NCBI GenBank assembly: GCA_006503535.1
Contig: QYRS01000001.1
Span: 3,658,001 to 3,722,000 of the forward strand
DNA from: Arthrinium phaeospermum
Taxonomy: Eukaryota > Ascomycota > Sordariomycetes > Amphisphaeriales > Apiosporaceae
Length of the DNA: 64,000 nt
Direction of reading: 5' to 3'
Position numbers and translations under genes: made by a program. Under the pieces are notes generated by a model, which saw only the letters and a list, made by a program, of their open reading frames with translations, had not been told where the DNA came from and did not search any database. The number at the start of each line of letters is the position of its first letter. Within the stretch, counting starts at the first letter, position 1. Positions 26,156 through 59,221 of the stretch are shown piece after piece.

Positions 26156-28405
26156 TTAGTCTCTCCTATCTGAAGACTCGTCAGATTTCTGCGAATTCCT
26201 GTCCGCCTGAAGTCTCTTGACAGCCATCGATTTCTCTTCCGTTCCTCTCTTAAGGAATTTTACTTTCACAGTCTTCGCCACATCCTCGAGATCGGCGGTA
26301 GTAAGCAGCTTCTCCTGCCGGTCCGCATTCCATGACGCCAAAGGATCGAAGTCCGCCGAAAGGAACCGCGGGCCTGGTTCCCCGGGCCCCACGAAGCGGG
26401 ATTTGTAGTAGATGAGCGGCAGCAGGTTGCTCTTCCACACCGCCTCGGTGTCCCGATGCCGCGCACTGCGCACGATCATCCACCCCACCATGGCGACGTC
26501 CAAGGCCAGAAGGCACCCGGGGAGCACCAGCCACTGCCACGCGATGCGGGTGTACGCCACGCGCCGCAGCGCCCGGCCGTCCACGCGGTCTGGCGTGCCG
26601 GGCGGGCGGAGGAAGCCCAGCCGGATCTGGTTCGTCGTCGCGCCGGCGATGGCTTCGAAGCGTTCCATGGTTGACTGGACCGTCGCGTGGTTTCGACCCC
26701 AGAACTGGGTGAGCCACCTGATAGAAAGACGTGAGAATCAACACTGTTTGGGGTCAGGGGCCGCAGTGACTTACAATCGGTCATCGCACGTAAGTTCAGG
26801 CCCGTTGCGAGGGTCCCAAGAACAGTTCCCGTTGAAGAACTTGGCGTACATTCCTCCTATGAGAGCGTATGCTAGGCCGTCTATGCGCGTGATGCAGCCC
26901 TCGTTGGCTGTTTCGGTCGGGAAGTCGGGCGCTGCCTCGACAGCAAGGAGGCGGATCCGTGTGGCATTCGGAGATGCTGAAACATTCGCCCGGGAATAGT
27001 TTTCGCCATCGACGACACACGACGGTTGTATTGCGGCCAGGCTGTAGTTGAGGACGCTTGTCGCTAAGTCCACTCTACGTAACGTCTCCGGAACATGCCC
27101 ATCATGATCCTTGTATTCGGGAACCAGCGGTGTACTGTCCAAGACCCTTTCTCGTAGCTTCCCATCTTGTACTTTAGCTTCATACGATCTGACGCAAGGG
27201 TATAATGAACACGCGGCCGCTACTGGCTCAGGATCGGTTCCATTGGCGAACGACATCGTGAATACCGTAGTGTTTACAAATGCCCATCGGGCGAGGGCAC
27301 TCTTCTGGCTTGTCATTAAGTGCGACGCCCAGCTCAGGTCGATGCGCTGGTCGTCGCCCACGTCGCTAGCATAATGGGGTGACGAGACTGATAACCACGC
27401 GGTACCTATCGACTCTCGGTGTCAGCATTTACTCTTCTTGGGTTGAATACAATGTCTCGAGAGGGGATGGTGGAAATTTCTGGAATAAGCAGTTATTCCA
27501 TCCCTCGTGAGACACTGGACTAACGTGGAATAAACACTAGAACAGGAAGGAATAAACACCGAAAGTCGCTTACCGTTACCGGTGATAAGTTCCATTCCGT
27601 TGGGTAGATGGTAGGCAGCCGCCCCCGTCGAGTTTGACTTTCCGTGTTCGATCAACTCCCCGACATCCGTACATGTGCTGCAGACTCCTATCGACGTGTG
27701 TGTCATGCCGGTTGTAGCCGAAAGTACGGGGAAGTTGCAGTTGCCAGTAGGGCATACCGGCGATATCAGCGAGTCTTTGCTCCTTGGATTCGCCAGTGCG
27801 TGGAATAGCGTGTTCCTGGGGCCGCAATTGAAGTTCCAAACCCCGTAATCTGCGTGCTCCATGGTCTTGAACCAGCTTCCAGTCGAGTTCATGTTGTTTG
27901 ATATCGGTAACGATGCTATACCTAGGTCCGAAGCTACAGTTTTGTATACGGTTCCAATGGATTGTTGCGTAAAAGGGCCAACCGATAGAGAGCTGAGAAG
28001 CACTATGATCGGTACTATGGCGAGCGGTTGTTGGGTTGCCACGGTCGGGAGCAGCTTCAGAGCCCCTAAAGAGCTCCTGCCCTCCTCGAATGTTTGCAGC
28101 TGGCCAAGGGGCCGACCTACAGCCGGCGCAGACCAGAACCAAATCCATTTCTGTTGGCTGATAACCTCTGCTGCCGTCGAAGCTAGGCAAGCGCGGAATA
28201 TCATGGATAGGATGTTGACTAAGGAGTTCAGAGTAATCTGGAAACTCCATTCCTCTTGGGAACGATCATCGACTTCGGCGAGGATGGCGATGATGGACGT
28301 TAGGATGCTCGATGCGGTCACACAAAGAAGGATGTCCCATTTCCAAGGATGGAGCACATCCTTCCAGACACTGGTTGCTAAGCTGCCGTTTTCTGGTGGT
28401 TTCAT
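26156..28405 (-). CDS. DUF3176 family membrane protein
   Basis: Three exons (28405-27574, 27405-26775, 26717-26156) join in frame to give 674 aa. The N-terminal part has the DUF3176 pattern: W-K-W-D-I followed by a hydrophobic segment (LLCVTASSILTSIIAILAEV), a second (LNSLVNILSMIFRACLAS), then QQKWIWFW and PLGQLQTFEEGRSSLGALKLL. A third hydrophobic segment (LAIVPIIVLLSSLSVG) precedes a long, probably extracytoplasmic region with paired Cys and N-x-S/T sites. A last membrane span lies near the end (VLPGCLLALDVAMVGWMIV). These proteins are common and poorly characterised in filamentous fungi; no biochemical role is known to me. Intron 2 (26718-26774) is ordinary, 57 nt. Intron 1 (27406-27573) is 168 nt and belongs to a repeated element also found upstream of the HET gene. 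Confidence 0.85.
27406..27573 (-). mobile_element. introner-like element, copy A (intron 1 of the DUF3176 gene)
   Basis: 168 nt, spliced GTAAGC...GATAG on the minus strand; removing it keeps the DUF3176 frame. Its two ends form an imperfect terminal inverted repeat: plus-strand left end CTATCGACTCTCGGTGT against the complement of the right end GTAAGCGACTTTCGGTGT, sharing CGACTYTCGGTGT. The core is flanked on the minus strand by GGTA on both sides. Internal inverted repeats (TGGAATAA..TTATTCCA and GAGGGATGG..CCATCCCCTC) allow a long hairpin. It aligns without gaps to 59054-59221. Confidence 0.75.
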
Positions 28406-30820
28406 CTTGAGGTCAAAAACGTAATTCCGATGCCAAGGTAACTTTATGGCAGAGAATCAAAGCAACCGGCATCTAAGGAATGCCAGAAACTATCGGGATT
28501 GGACATCTCCCAAACAGAATAAGAGGTATACGTCAAGATCATGCAATGGAGGAATTACAAGCTATGTCCGTACATCCTTTTGCGTCTTATCTATACCTCA
28601 AGTAGCATGGGCCGGCGAGATTCTAGCATGTCCCATGTCGTCAACTATTGGTCCTCAAGGCTTTGGCCCCAATGGCGGCGCAGTGGGGGTTGGAGTCAAG
28701 AGCCAAAGCAGGTGCATCGGTCCGTTTCCACCTACAGCAAGCTATTCAGGCTGATTTAACTTGTAGGGCGCAGCAAGGCTGTTTCTATATTCAATGTGAC
28801 TATTTTGGGGCGTGTTCACGTGTTACCACCGTTAGAGAGGCCGATCACTCTTCTGAAATCAGAAGGTGGTCTCGTAAGCTGACGTGGGGGCTAAAAGGAA
28901 CTTGCAGAGGGGGGTCGTGGGTGAAACAACCGCGATTGGCTCAATCAGCTGCCTGTAAACAAAGCAATTCTCAATATGGGGGCCATGGCAGCCAAGTTGG
29001 TTTTGCAATGACCTTTCTGTGATTTCATTCGACAAATGAGTCGTGGAGGTCTCCAAATAGACTTATCCCTTGCGAGTGCATGAAGGCAGTGCTTCACGTG
29101 GCCGCTGAGGCGATGTGTCCGCATCACGGACAGGAACTCCTCCCTCCCTGGCGAGATGCCCGAGTCGATGGTGAAGTTGCTCTGATGGTGGTAAAACGGG
29201 AGAATGAAGAGAAGCACTTCCTTACCGCGGAAGTGAAGGAAGGAGAAAAAGGGCCGAGTAGGGATGGCGATGATGGCACTTTCTTCATCAAGCGGCCGGG
29301 CTTGTACTTGTACCGCCTGTATTGGAAAGGCGACGCTGTGCGCTTCCTACCCAGGAGATGCTGCATGAGGCTGAGGCCATGGCGTGTCCCCAGGCCACCC
29401 ATCTGTGTATTTGAAGTACCACAGCTATTGCGGACTATGGGGCAAGTGAATCACTGGGTTGTGCTGGATCGGCAGACCTGCAAACTGGAAGAATACTTGA
29501 AAGAGAGAGAGAGAGAGGGGTGGTCATCGTCGTCGTTGTGGTAGTCTTCTACTTCGGGGCAAGGGGAACGAAAAACTATTCATGGAGGAGTTGAAGTCCG
29601 CGCTCAGTCAGTTACCGCGATGTGCCGTGCCCATTTCAACATCGACCCCGCCAACTTCGTTGTCGCCCTTTTATAAACGACGTTGGTGGCGGTGCCACGT
29701 CAATACGGGTTGGCGCGCAGGGTATGCGAGAAAGCTGGGGACGAGCCGCGGGCGGGATGGCAGGATCGACCGCGGGGGCAAGGACTAGAGGACTTCCGAG
29801 GTCTTCCACAGTTCTTTGACGCTGAATCAGCATGCTGATTGCTGTGGTGTAACCCAATAACGGGGCATGCAGTTTGAGATTAGTGAACCGCGGGATGCTT
29901 ATCGGCCTGAGATACATGAAGTAGGGATCTTGAGGCACTATCTCCTTGTCTCTCTTTTCGACCACTCTCCTCCAGTAGTCTCCGTGACTTGAAATTCCTT
30001 AAAATAGCAAGTATGAAGATAGTATGGAAACTTTGGTTCGTCCGGCATTGTTTCAAGTATGATGGGCAATGTGATGATATTCAAGCTGCCACACCACTCC
30101 CCATCAGCATGTTCATATTGTTAGTAATGCTGGCAACGGGACCGACGTTGGAATAAAGTTTTTAAGTGTAGATGTCAGACTTTAATTACAATCATCCCAT
30201 GTTTGATGATCAACGTTCGGCTGGTAACACCTAAGCCATAATTGCACCCAAACACAAGGAATCGTGGAAGCATTCGATCGATGTTCACGCAGCCTGATTC
30301 AATTGGTTGCCGCAGATTTAACAATCAATTGGCATTCAGTAGAGTCCTTATTGAACTGGATAACCCGAGGAACTCCTGTCTCGGAAAGGGGTTCAGCTAA
30401 CGGGGGCTGGATGTCGCAAGCATCGGGTCTCCGATAACACAAAAACGCGGGGGCTGCAAATTCGGGTGGCTGCTCTGTTGTACTGGGTACTTCTAGTCTA
30501 CTTGTCCGAGTGGCTTTCCAGCATTATGCCTGGAAAGCCAAGTATAATCTAATTATTTTCTTCTGAAGAAAACTGGGTTGCTTGGTACCTAGCCTTGTCT
30601 CCATGGCCGAGTGCGCATACATACGGAGGTTCCCTCCCGAGCGAGCGAAATGGTGGCTGGAAGCTTTAACGCACTGCCCACTTTCTGGTTTCTCAAGATG
30701 CTCAACCTGATTTTCTTCTTTTCCTGACCTTTCTTTACCTTTCTTCTCACCACTATCATAAGTATCGGCCTCCCCAGTCTCAAACTTCCATTCCGCTCCA
30801 TTCATTACCCAAACACTCGC
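28406..30820. other. 2.4-kb region without a supported gene
   Basis: Between the DUF3176 gene (-) and the next membrane-protein gene (+), which are divergent. A 154-codon plus-strand frame at 29080-29544 has no recognisable domain and ends in a GA-repeat-encoded tail; I do not call it. A short (GA)n run lies near 29503-29516. Confidence 0.45.
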
Positions 30821-44708: not shown

Positions 44709-46779
44709 GGAGATTCCAAATCGGCCATGCCACAGCCGAGTTTAATTCCCAAAGCGATAATACGGTTTTCAATCAATGCACAGTCCCTGAATTCCGGGAT
44801 TGGCTGGCTATGGTGGTTTGCTCGAGGTGGAGTGTGAGCAAAACATCTTGCTCAAATGCTCTCGAGCGTGTAATTGCGTTTGACCTGGCAATGGAAGTTT
44901 TCTTTCCTCTACTTATTGGGGGTTTAAGGGTAGCTAGGAAACCGGGATTTGGAGCTTCGCGATGACGCTGCACCAAAATACTGGCTGGTACCACCCTAGA
45001 AAGCCTCCGGCTGGACGTATTATGCCCTACGGTGGTCCATTAGGTGATTCCAACCTGTGGAGTGATGAGCTGGTTAGCTCAACACCGTATAGCATAGTTC
45101 GCCGCCATCCAATACGCCGAGATAACGAAACAAAAAACGATATTTATACTATGGCCGCGCCCGGATGCCCACATCGACACCTCCAAGTCCCAGGCCCGGT
45201 CGTCAGTCATCTACGGAGGGTACCTCGCCCGGGGCCCATTCCGTTCCCGCTTGTGGTAGTCGTCAAGGGCCTGCTGTTCGGCAGGGGCCGGCGGGCTTTG
45301 GCGGTGGATGCTTGGCGGGCGCAGGTGTGTCCCGATCTCGCTGACAGCCTGCTGGGGCTCGGAAATCAGACGTTCATCGGGGGGACGACAAGGTAAACTA
45401 CTTTTGGTGATACCTTCACTATTTCTGCATTAACTACACTCAGCCCTGGTATTTGTTCCTGATTTATTCCTATGTCTTGGCAAAGAAAGCGCGTTCTGCT
45501 TGCAATCTTAAAGGATGCGTCTATTCCCCCCAGGACACCCGGCTGTTTCCTAACGGGGCAGATACTAACGCCGAGAGTTAACAGGAGCTGCTTCCGGTCA
45601 ATAATTGGCTTCAAGGCTGGTTCGCGCGCAGGGGGGCCTGACTCCAGGTAGGGGAAGATATTCGGGGCCAGTGTCGCGACCAACCGGAACTCACGGATTA
45701 CCTATTACACCCACCAACGACATGACAGATGACGTGAAGAATGTCAGTGAAATTACAGAGGATGGCGGATGCAAGGGATGGACAATGGAATGACCGGCGA
45801 CACGTGGATTAGAGCAAGCCAACAGGGTCGCCTCTCCGCGATTCGACCCTCGCCCATGGTCGTGCCTGCGTTGGTTGCCACCCGATTCCGGCTCCCCGGT
45901 TCCATTGCCAGAAAGGGGCCCCATGCCGATGCAACGCTGTCCGCGACGCAACCAACAAAATGGCATTCCGGGTTTGGTCCCAGCGGATCCGAGATCAATA
46001 GATCTGACTCGGGTTTTCTCTGCAAACAGGAAAACGAGAGAGGTATCAGACCAAGGGAAGAGTTTCGTATTATATTTTTCACAAAAGAAACAATAAACAA
46101 ATGTGGTAGTGCATCGGTCCCCTCCGCCATTGCAACGTCGCAATGCAACCGTCGCAGTGCTGTGCCGCAGTCAATTGCCCGCCAAGCCGACTTGGAGAGC
46201 AAATAGTCCGTTGGTACCGGGCAGGCGGTTCTGCCCATTGCCCATTCCACGGCGCAGCAGCAAGCGAGGAGTTCCCGCTTGGCTGCATCTCGACCCCAAA
46301 TTAAAAATGTGATAATGCACCCAGAGCACCGGAGGGGTGACACGAAATCGGATGATGATCACGCGGTGGCTGCCCTTTTCACACCCACCCTTCCGTGCCT
46401 GCAGGACGGTTTCCCATCTGTTCGTGGTCTTGTGCTGCCTCATGGTGGCAGCGGCAGCGGCAGCGTCCCCATGTGCCCTCCTCGCGCATGTGCATATCTC
46501 TCATTTCCACCGGAGTAGATCGCCATCGCTTCCTGCTTACAACTAAATGAGATTCCCGAATGGTACGCGGGACCCCCTTGACTATTGGGTTGATGACGTG
46601 AACAGCTGCATGCTACGGGGACCAAGAAACGGACGATTATCAGTCAAGGCTCAGCTATGTGACATTACTGTCTGAGTTGGGTGTGTGCCATTAATACCTC
46701 CTATCTCCGCATTGCGAGCTGTCAGCCAAGTTCTTCTCCAACGAAAGTCGTTCATTTTCCCTCTAATAATACACCCAAG
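44709..46779. other. 2-kb region without a supported gene
   Basis: A 144-codon plus frame at 44962-45396 has no recognised domain and its composition is not convincing. The 45.4-46.7 kb part has only short overlapping frames. It includes the promoter of the GMC gene. Confidence 0.45.
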
Positions 46780-56703: not shown

Positions 56704-59034
56704 TCAACCCAGAACCAAATCAAACTCTTCCAGGCCAGGATGGTTATCCCAGGCACTCCTCTCTACAACCCCACTGGCCCGTCTGTATGCTATTCCATTA
56801 TTCCATTCGATCCACAAAACTGCGTAGTAATCCCTATACACAAGCTCTTCTATGTCCCAGTATGCCGCATATTCGTCCCTTTCTTCCCAGCTTGCTGCCT
56901 TCTTGACCGGATCCCCTACGCCTCCCCACAGAGGACCATCTCCAACCAGGGTCCTTCGGCATATTGCTGCAAGCTCAATTCTGGTATCAACCCCGCCGTC
57001 CACAGAAACAAGCGAGAAGTCATCTTCTGAGTGAAGCCAAATGTGGCCTACATGCTTGGCAAGATGATCTCGCAGATACAGTCTTGGTCTGGGCGTAACC
57101 TCGTTCTGAACCGGGAGGTTCTCTGGAAACCTCCAGGAGGCATCCATATAGACCCGGGTCGTCCTTCCGAAAAGATACGGCATTTGCGTTGGTATGACGG
57201 TGCTGTTATTGGAACCTGTCTCATGTGTTGGAAGGTGGTACCAAAACGTCTTGTGGGGGACGCTGTCGTGGCGGAAAACGTGACTTCCACAGCCAGGCGG
57301 TTTGGTGTTTCTTTGGAAACGTGAAGGGGCCAGTTCCTCGCGTGTCCAGCCGAGAGGGGGCGGATATGGGTCGCAATGCAGAGGACGTCTATGGAACCAG
57401 GAAGCTATGGGGCGACGCTGATGTCCCTGCGGCTCATGGCTTGCATACCACGTCGTGATTGAATGTGTTTGTGATGGATTCGAAGCATGTGTCTCGAATC
57501 CTATTTCGTCACCGCAGCAATCGACCGGACCTTGCCACCCAACCCACGACCATGAAGGTAGATGCGTAGTCGCAGTCTCTAGCCGCTGACTCGGCGTACT
57601 TCGCCTTCGTAGTCCATCCTCTGGTAGAAGGGGCCTCCAGCATAAAGCCAAGTCGAAGAACATGCTAGGTAGCCCAAAGAGGAAACCACCATCAAAGCCT
57701 CGACTAAGAACCGCAAGCATTCCCGATATAGCCCTGAGGGCATCGGAATCATGCGTCAAGTCTCTGTGGTTAAAGTCGCGCCCAACAGACCAGTACATAT
57801 TCAGATCTGGGAGGCCATGAGCGGTGAGGTACGCTGCAGCGTCATCTTTATCCTTCGGTTTCGTCATGGGGCGCTGCTCATCCCATACGGCGCACCCACA
57901 TTCCCAGTGAACCCTGTTGCCCACGAATATGAGTTTTCGAGCACTCATCTTGTATTCTTGGAACGTCCAGCCGCGTGTCCCATACGCTGTCCGGTGCGTT
58001 TTGTCGACGAACTCACCGACCGGAAGCTGAATCAGCGTATGGTGAGCGAATTTCAATAGGCTTTGATTCGATAGTCGGGCTGCAGCACCCGGCGCACCAG
58101 GCATCCCGTGGTCACCGTCACCCTCTGCAGCAATAATGGTCAGTAACGCGCTCCCGTATATTGCTCCCATCCTGTCCATCTCCGTGACCTTGAAATCCTC
58201 GTCATCTTGAGGAATGCACAGTGTATCCACCCATAAAAATCGCTCATCCATGCCCTCCACGAGCCGCATAGCTTGAGACACCGCGGCAGGAAGTCGAGCT
58301 GTTATGTCTGCCTGGTCGAGACTTCCGGACTTCTGGAGATCCGGCAGTGCTGCTTTGCGTGTCTGGTAGGCTGGTTTCTTGCCCCATTGATAGCTCAAGC
58401 AGATGTAGGCACCACCTTCGTTGCCGGGTACAAGACATTTGCGTCGGGTGTCGATCAGCCACGCAGGTTTGATCTGATCGATCATCCATGGATTGCCACA
58501 CGACTGGCCGTGATCACTGATGCATCGGTTCTTCCAGAAGTTGATCAGTTCCAAGTCGAACCAAGGACTCGTTGCAAGCGAGAATCGACTTGGATGATCT
58601 TCGATACCAACGCCCTTGACGATGCCTAATTTCAAAAATCCGGGACCGCGGAAGTTCAAGATCGAATCTTCCACTGAGATTGCTATGTTGTACAGTCCCG
58701 CGCCTGAAGGGATAGAAAGTTCACGGAAGACTCCATTGTGGCCTGAACAATCCATGGCTAAGATTTCGGCGATGTTCAGGCCGGTTTCAAGACACCGCTC
58801 CCTTTCGGGGTTTCTCTCGGTGATGAGGCCCCAGAGGAGGTCGCACACTGAACATGGGAGTTGGATCCCGTCCAACCCAGTCGGGGTCCATCCGAGAGAA
58901 CGTTGATCATGTCCGACGTTGAGATGGCCGGTTGAGCTGGCATCACCGGCGAATTCATAATGGACTCCATATTTGTTGTTTGTCTCTGAATAGGCCTGGA
59001 ACTCCGCTTCTTGGCAAGTGTCCATTCCTGACAT
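56704..59034 (-). CDS. HET-domain (heterokaryon incompatibility) protein
   Basis: 776 aa from ATG 59034, without introns after that point. The HET domain spans roughly residues 209-385: GGAYICLSYQWGKK (block 1), DERFLWVDTLCIPQDDEDF (block 2, typical W-V-D-x-L-C-I-x-Q) with ..MGAIYGSALLTIIAAEGDG, and YGTRGWTFQEYKMSARKLIF (block 3). The N-terminal ~200 residues contain a CSVCDLLWG motif often seen in this branch, and the C-terminal part is variable. HET proteins act in allorecognition, triggering cell death when incompatible hyphae fuse; the partner is unknown. The reading frame stays open upstream through the repeated element at 59054-59221. A short upstream frame (59366 down to 59222) does not join in frame by the element's canonical splice sites, so I place the start downstream of it. 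Confidence 0.85.
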   Translation of the reverse strand: MSGMDTCQEAEFQAYSETNNKYGVHYEFAGDASSTGHLNVGHDQRSLGWTPTGLDGIQLPCSVCDLLWGLITERNPERERCLETGLNIAEILAMDCSGHNGVFRELSIPSGAGLYNIAISVEDSILNFRGPGFLKLGIVKGVGIEDHPSRFSLATSPWFDLELINFWKNRCISDHGQSCGNPWMIDQIKPAWLIDTRRKCLVPGNEGGAYICLSYQWGKKPAYQTRKAALPDLQKSGSLDQADITARLPAAVSQAMRLVEGMDERFLWVDTLCIPQDDEDFKVTEMDRMGAIYGSALLTIIAAEGDGDHGMPGAPGAAARLSNQSLLKFAHHTLIQLPVGEFVDKTHRTAYGTRGWTFQEYKMSARKLIFVGNRVHWECGCAVWDEQRPMTKPKDKDDAAAYLTAHGLPDLNMYWSVGRDFNHRDLTHDSDALRAISGMLAVLSRGFDGGFLFGLPSMFFDLALCWRPLLPEDGLRRRSTPSQRLETATTHLPSWSWVGWQGPVDCCGDEIGFETHASNPSQTHSITTWYASHEPQGHQRRPIASWFHRRPLHCDPYPPPLGWTREELAPSRFQRNTKPPGCGSHVFRHDSVPHKTFWYHLPTHETGSNNSTVIPTQMPYLFGRTTRVYMDASWRFPENLPVQNEVTPRPRLYLRDHLAKHVGHIWLHSEDDFSLVSVDGGVDTRIELAAICRRTLVGDGPLWGGVGDPVKKAASWEERDEYAAYWDIEELVYRDYYAVLWIEWNNGIAYRRASGVVERSAWDNHPGLEEFDLVLG

Positions 59035-59053
59035 CAGTGCTGGAGGACGATAC

Positions 59054-59221
59054 CTATCGACTCTCGGTGTTAGCAAATGCTCTTCTTGGGGCGAACGGGA
59101 TGTCTTTAGAGGAAATAATGGAACCGTCTTGAATAAGTGGTTAGCCCATCCCTCTAGGAACACTGGGATAATGTGGAATAAACGCCGGATGAGGAAGGAA
59201 TAAACACCGAAAGTCGCTTAC
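59054..59221 (-). mobile_element. introner-like element, copy B (upstream of the HET gene)
   Basis: 168 nt, exactly the length of copy A at 27406-27573. The gapless hand alignment has about 36 mismatches, with the outer 17 nt on one side and 28 nt on the other identical. It ends 20 nt before the HET start codon. Splice signals GTAAGC and GATAG are at its ends. On the minus strand the flanks are AGTA and GGTA. Probably a 5'-leader intron. Confidence 0.7.

Follow-up and report, generated by a model that had tools for sequence, protein, structure and literature searches.

The window, a stretch of 64,000 nucleotides, carries a DUF3176 gene on its minus strand. Its two open frames, at 27574..28456 upstream (DUF3176, PF11374) and at 26774..27405 downstream (the remaining part of the gene), are given as stop-to-stop limits rather than annotated exon ends, and are separated by a 168-nt element at 27406..27573 (copy 1). 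Read on the minus strand, this element has the form of an intron, GTAAGC...GATAG, and relatives of the gene are contiguous over the junction. A second element of 168 nt (copy 2) is located at 59054..59221 on the minus strand, adjoining a HET-domain open frame at 56707..59052 on the same strand.

As the first-pass annotation had reported, the two copies align without a gap over 168 nt with 36 mismatches (132/168 matching, 78.6% identity). The identical run of 17 nt at one end was likewise borne out, while the run at the other end, given as 28 nt, is actually 30 nt long. When copy 1 was compared with every other position of the window on both strands, the best match was at most 75/168. A BLAST search with copy 1 plus 100 nt of flank per side gave a match (E 1e-28) that ends at the element, with an overrun of about 6 nt at one end. 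Because similarity halts at the element borders, the pair did not arise within a longer duplicated stretch, an origin that the same annotation had named as one that would refute its proposal.

The placement of copy 2 needed correction. It does adjoin the HET gene, but it lies outside the HET coding sequence and in the 5' leader at most. If copy 2 were spliced out, the joined ends would form a TAG. Two aligned Apiospora homologues put the start codon of the HET protein 28 nt 3' of the copy (59023-59025), with a further ATG at 19 nt (59032-59034). Hence copy 2 is only possible as a 5'-leader intron. The HET protein itself shows 80% identity to an A. marii protein. On the plus strand, 45393..45584 may represent a decayed third copy (192 nt, GTAAAC...CTAAC...AACAG, ends placed by eye), to which nhmmer gave a profile match of 22 bits with an E value of 2e-5 computed among the collected family loci. 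If it is a decayed copy, it possibly shows such introns ageing into ordinary ones.

Extent and make-up of the family

The genome carrying the window comprises 48.4 Mb in 19 contigs, and the whole-genome BLAST suggested by the first-pass annotation returned many further copies. Among the best 40 of 102 candidates scored with copy 1 and the best 40 of 91 scored with copy 2, the query included in each case, the other places were 75-96% identical; one extra row with copy 1 was a 25-nt fragment of an already listed place. The element ends were used as patterns with at most 3 mismatches. The 25-nt 5' end gave 97 genome matches (46 forward, 51 reverse) compared with 0 for the reversed-pattern control, and the 21-nt 3' end gave 90 matches compared with 3. 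Merging the end patterns with BLAST yielded 124 candidate places on 18 of the 19 contigs, at 63 of which both ends were found by pattern. Sequence was inspected at 103 of these 124 places, namely the first 83 and a later 20 kept as a hold-out. A profile built from 40 copies identified 57 full-ended copies among those first 83 and a further 18 in the hold-out, which makes 75.

The lengths of the 57 copies fall into a main class of 160-181 nt (n=44), a shorter class of 130-150 nt (n=12) and one composite of 466 nt. In several of the 12 short copies, the segment between two 5'-proximal GTGTTTATTCC repeats is gone, as if deleted between direct repeats. The composite (L021, G000:C10:1057481-1057946) consists of four partial units and constitutes a single intron of a GCN2-like kinase gene. 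Fifty copies were aligned out of the 56 that scored above 125 bits, six of odd length being omitted, and their identity to the consensus is 80-96% with a median of 90%.

In minus-strand reading, the element begins with GTAAGCGACTTTCGGTGT and ends with GCTGACACCGAGAGTCGATAG. Its 5' splice site is strong, its branch point reads CTNAC with the A placed 17 nt before the 3' terminus, and it closes with TAG; in copy 1 the branch-point-like motif reads CTGAC at 27421..27425 (minus strand), as seen in its sequence and in the 50-copy alignment. An inverted repeat of 13 bp, CGACTYTCGGTGT, is set 4-5 nt inside both ends. Its 5' arm in copy 1 is CGACTTTCGGTGT (element positions 6-18, 27556..27568, minus strand) and its 3' arm ACACCGAGAGTCG (element positions 152-164, 27410..27422, minus strand), and each of the 13 pairs is conserved in 45-48 of the 50 aligned copies. 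An exact search of the genome with the repeat core gave 74 matches, 72 inside family places and 2 lone ones; by exact repeat search, no longer partner element with the same repeats, which could act as a transposase source, was found in the genome. The predicted folds of the two window copies beat all 200 shuffles (z -5.9 and -3.5). RNAalifold on the 50 copies returned just 3 weak pairs, with the terminal inverted-repeat stem absent, and the predicted fold is thus without covariation support.

Restored frames and candidate empty sites

Removal of the element joins the frames of a nonribosomal peptide synthetase (1066 aa), the GCN2-like kinase (810 aa), a 744-aa protein, the DUF3176 protein (505 aa), a kumamolisin-type protease and others. 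A Pfam domain crosses the junction in 6 of the 14 spliced ORFs that were scanned. All six belong to the first batch of ten (kinase, condensation, epimerase, MFS, amidohydrolase and 2EXR), and no Pfam domain was found across the junction in the four of the second batch (L007, L022, L052 and L079). As splice signals stand at both ends and frames are restored on removal, the copies constitute an introner-like family. Indeed, many similar introns lie in unrelated genes and their likeness reaches both splice borders, which is the mark of an introner, and splicing of the copies is judged probable from the restored frames and the conserved splice signals. The first-pass annotation had proposed such a family for the window pair, and both the further copies and the conserved frames restored by precise removal support it. 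It had also suggested that the family could explain recent intron gain in accessory genes; the copy in the GCN2-like kinase gene shows that the family extends beyond such genes.

The comparison with intron-less homologues, another check put forward at that stage, was carried out at protein level for two loci, and the relatives of both DUF3176 and the GCN2-like kinase are continuous at the insertion sites. For the kinase, 120 of 145 homologues were compared; 115 span the junction, and 115/115 show no gap within 9 residues of it. Of 55 matching DUF3176 homologues, 53 span the junction and 30 of these are ungapped, among them the four most similar (80-86% identity). Matches to the spliced DUF3176 protein at 80-86% identity come from Apiospora arundinis, A. 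saccharicola and A. sp., which together with the A. marii match of the HET protein places the host in Apiospora. This genome also has three nearly full-length DUF3176 paralogues that pass the insertion site in a single stop-free alignment, and five shorter matches cover it in the same way. The window gene itself splits at the site, with matches at 1-305 and 295-505. The close homologues P0002 (84% identical, DUF3176) and P0164 (86-87%, GCN2-like) are continuous at the respective sites, which suggests that these sites are empty. At these two loci, DUF3176 and GCN2-like, the elements would occupy new intron positions.

Target site and genomic context

Among the 57 copies, GT follows the element in 44 and G in 54, while G precedes it in 40 and AG in 0. 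The 18 hold-out copies gave GT downstream in 12, G downstream in 17, G upstream in 15 and AG upstream in 2, so that the prediction set down beforehand (at least 70% GT and almost no AG) was narrowly missed with 12/18 GT and 2/18 AG. Pooled, GT lies downstream of 56/75 copies and AG upstream of 2/75. The downstream GT in 56/75 copies compares with 1/23 ordinary introns in the same loci (Fisher p of about 1e-9), a small control of introns that are predicted only (GTRNGT donors, 45-110 nt, element ends excluded). A stricter de novo search for ordinary introns had given 12, including one element end, and the relaxed search gave the 23. Thirteen of the 57 copies are without the downstream GT, some of them among the best-scoring.

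No target-site duplication was detected, flanking direct repeats being no commoner than in shuffled flank pairs. Since the element opens with GT and its downstream flank has one as well, a 2-bp duplication is inseparable from a target preference. A GT/GGT duplication as the rule, with AAGC...GATA as the core and the duplication completing the splice sites, was attractive because the inverted repeats would then be equidistant from both ends. It was nevertheless rejected: many copies have a preceding base that differs from the last base of the element itself, the high-scoring copies L002, L003, L019, L027 and L084 have no downstream GT, and the profile score, taken as a proxy of age, shows no difference between GT and non-GT copies (p 0.94). 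A subset of copies may still carry such a duplication. Separately, the high-scoring copy L084 (G000:C4:117785-117952) is abutted at both borders by a 13-nt direct repeat, the only long one seen.

The contexts of the copies were first assessed by a plain open-frame test. With 60 nt on both sides, 32/42 copies are open in the sense direction compared with 72% of random positions; because this test separated copies poorly from random positions, codon usage was used instead. The codon-usage score, computed over 150 nt per side with training that omits the scored locus and with cut-offs chosen after the scores were seen, classed the 57 copies as coding sense (21), coding antisense (0), non-coding (28) and undecided (8), and errs at some loci, as the GCN2-like copy scored 1.5, below the coding class, and a BCS1-like sense copy was classed as non-coding. 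The 18 hold-out copies stayed outside this classing since their flanks were too short. Downstream GT is found in 15/21 coding and 22/28 non-coding copies (p 0.74). The preference is alike in both classes and is thus not the product of selection for splicing. The splice signals gave a different picture, with GT and AG intact in 20/21 coding versus 18/28 non-coding copies (p 0.014), and GT, AG and branch point all intact in 20/21 versus 15/28 (Fisher p 0.0014).

Several non-coding copies are antisense to the adjoining gene. Five such neighbour ORFs were scanned with Pfam, and two exceeded the cut-off, a BCS1-like AAA protein (L031) and Bys1 (L082); L053 gave a sub-threshold MFS match, and L029 and L040 gave none. 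At L060 (G000:C17:332823-333319), a single BCS1-like gene holds a head-to-head pair of copies separated by about 190 nt, and the pair is bracketed by two BCS1_N pieces (positions 21-93 and 120-182) that are both on one strand. Judged by eye, the sense copy is apparently an intron with its AG 6 nt past its own end, and the antisense copy sits within another intron of the gene. With 28/57 copies non-coding and some antisense to their neighbour, a DNA element fits better than a purely intronic one.

Mode of spread and comparison with known introners

The best explanation overall, to which we assign a probability of roughly 0.7, is that the window pair belongs to a mobile family of introner-like elements, about 100 copies strong, in this Apiospora genome. 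In this explanation each unit is non-autonomous and measures about 168 nt, a second form having 130-150 nt; it has dual-purpose ends, inserts preferably at G^GT and is spliced from exons. The ends would do double duty, since they hold the inverted repeat CGACTYTCGGTGT together with the 5' splice site, the branch point and the 3' splice site. Insertion would prefer G^GT without a detectable target-site duplication. A copy landing in sense within an exon would be spliced out exactly and the original mRNA restored, so that the insertion becomes a new intron, while antisense insertions in exons would be removed by selection. Outside exons, insertions could persist either way round and their splice signals would decay. 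Copy number, the signals at the ends, the preferred target, the restored frames and the split between coding and non-coding sites come directly from computation; we infer that the introns are spliced and that movement takes place at the DNA level, with an enzyme supplied in trans.

Propagation through RNA, as argued by the published authors for Dothideomycete elements, supposes that an excised intron is reverse-spliced, so that copies arise only in transcripts and in sense. Insertion does look seamless, the splice signals coincide with the element ends, and the sense-only distribution in coding sequence (21 versus 0) is predicted by this route as well. It is hard to reconcile with the antisense copy that lies inside the BCS1-like gene, flanked by two parts of a single domain, with copies antisense to an adjoining gene such as those at L031 and L082, with a GT preference that is equal outside coding sequence, or with the scarcity of upstream AG (2/75), and we therefore regard it as unlikely, albeit the strongest of the rivals. 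Occurrence in any context and orientation, loss from antisense exon positions and decay of unneeded splice signals are all observed, and hence movement as DNA is favoured over reverse splicing, although it is not proven. Whether the family is, more specifically, an ascomycete introner moving as DNA, MITE-like, with termini that are at once transposon ends and complete splice sites and with a G^GT target, is to us an evenly balanced question.

Insertion through the repair of double-strand breaks, the route proposed for Hypoxylaceae stwintrons, would agree with the absence of duplications above chance, and the 13-nt repeat flanking L084 is what repair of a staggered break would give. By itself, however, it does not predict a downstream GT in three quarters of the copies, a bias that the stwintrons do not have, and it seems to us improbable, appreciably more so than the RNA route. 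Two further readings have hardly any likelihood. A transposon that landed in pre-existing introns, its sequence becoming intronic by hitch-hiking, would account for the inverted repeats and the mobile-element distribution, but coding copies are alike from the 5' through to the 3' splice site and paralogues are intron-less at the DUF3176 site. A larger duplicated segment, or conversion of one locus by the other, might be suspected from the distance of 31.6 kb between the window copies on one contig, but similarity ends at the element borders, the flanks of the two copies are unrelated, and flanks also differ among the inspected places of a family whose candidate places occupy 18/19 contigs.

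No earlier description of Apiospora introners turned up in the open-licence literature of PubMed Central. The family departs from published ascomycete introners in its G^GT target and in its non-genic and antisense copies. Introner-like elements of Dothideomycetes are known from Fulvia fulva, Zymoseptoria tritici and relatives (PMC4457414, and van der Burgt 2012 as cited in it); those of fungi are described in PMC3443670 as solely co-linear with transcribed DNA, and a preference of the Dothideomycete elements for AG/GY sites is cited in PMC8469720. Like these, the Apiospora copies appear as similar spliceosomal introns, here predicted, in many unrelated genes. A stable fold is predicted for the two window copies, though the 50-copy alignment lends it no covariation support; decay toward ordinary introns is here suggested by one weak match in the window. 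Unlike them, judged here from DNA, the Apiospora copies also lie outside genes and in antisense, and instead of AG/GY the sites show AG upstream in 2/75 and GT, which is a GY, downstream in 56/75.

The Hypoxylaceae and Xylariaceae harbor internally symmetrical stwintrons and canonical introns derived from them (PMC8469720, PMC9024468 and PMC12403724). These have terminal inverted repeats and random sites according to PMC8469720 and PMC12403724, the former indicating that the sites are seemingly random, with an upstream AG or a downstream GU at about 1 in 16. The Apiospora family resembles them in its inverted repeats, in the lack of a detectable target-site duplication and in its dozens of copies or more. 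Their 10-nt palindrome TTTCTAGAAA is absent, by eye, from the consensus of the 50-copy alignment, and, in contrast to a nested stwintron pair that splits a donor, the Apiospora unit looks by sequence like a single GT-AG intron.

Introners derived from DNA transposons are known from algae and protists (surveyed in PMC9860276 and described by Huff et al. as cited there). The survey reports target-site duplications in 49/130 introner families, some of them supplying a splice site. The Apiospora element is similar in its inverted repeats, its non-autonomous nature and an mRNA length that would be unchanged once the predicted splicing has taken place; it differs from those with duplications in bringing both splice sites itself, with no duplication seen. 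If the DNA-level interpretation is true, the G^GT target would make sense insertions in exons scarless in mRNA, fungal intron gain would be a direct by-product of DNA transposition, and the view that fungal introners propagate through RNA would be contradicted. The same survey (PMC9860276) sets ascomycete families apart as an outlier without terminal inverted repeats or target-site duplications, and earlier authors favour reverse splicing, whereas the Apiospora family has inverted repeats. Together with a sharp, context-independent target and non-genic and antisense copies, these repeats offer a direct handle on how fungal introners spread.
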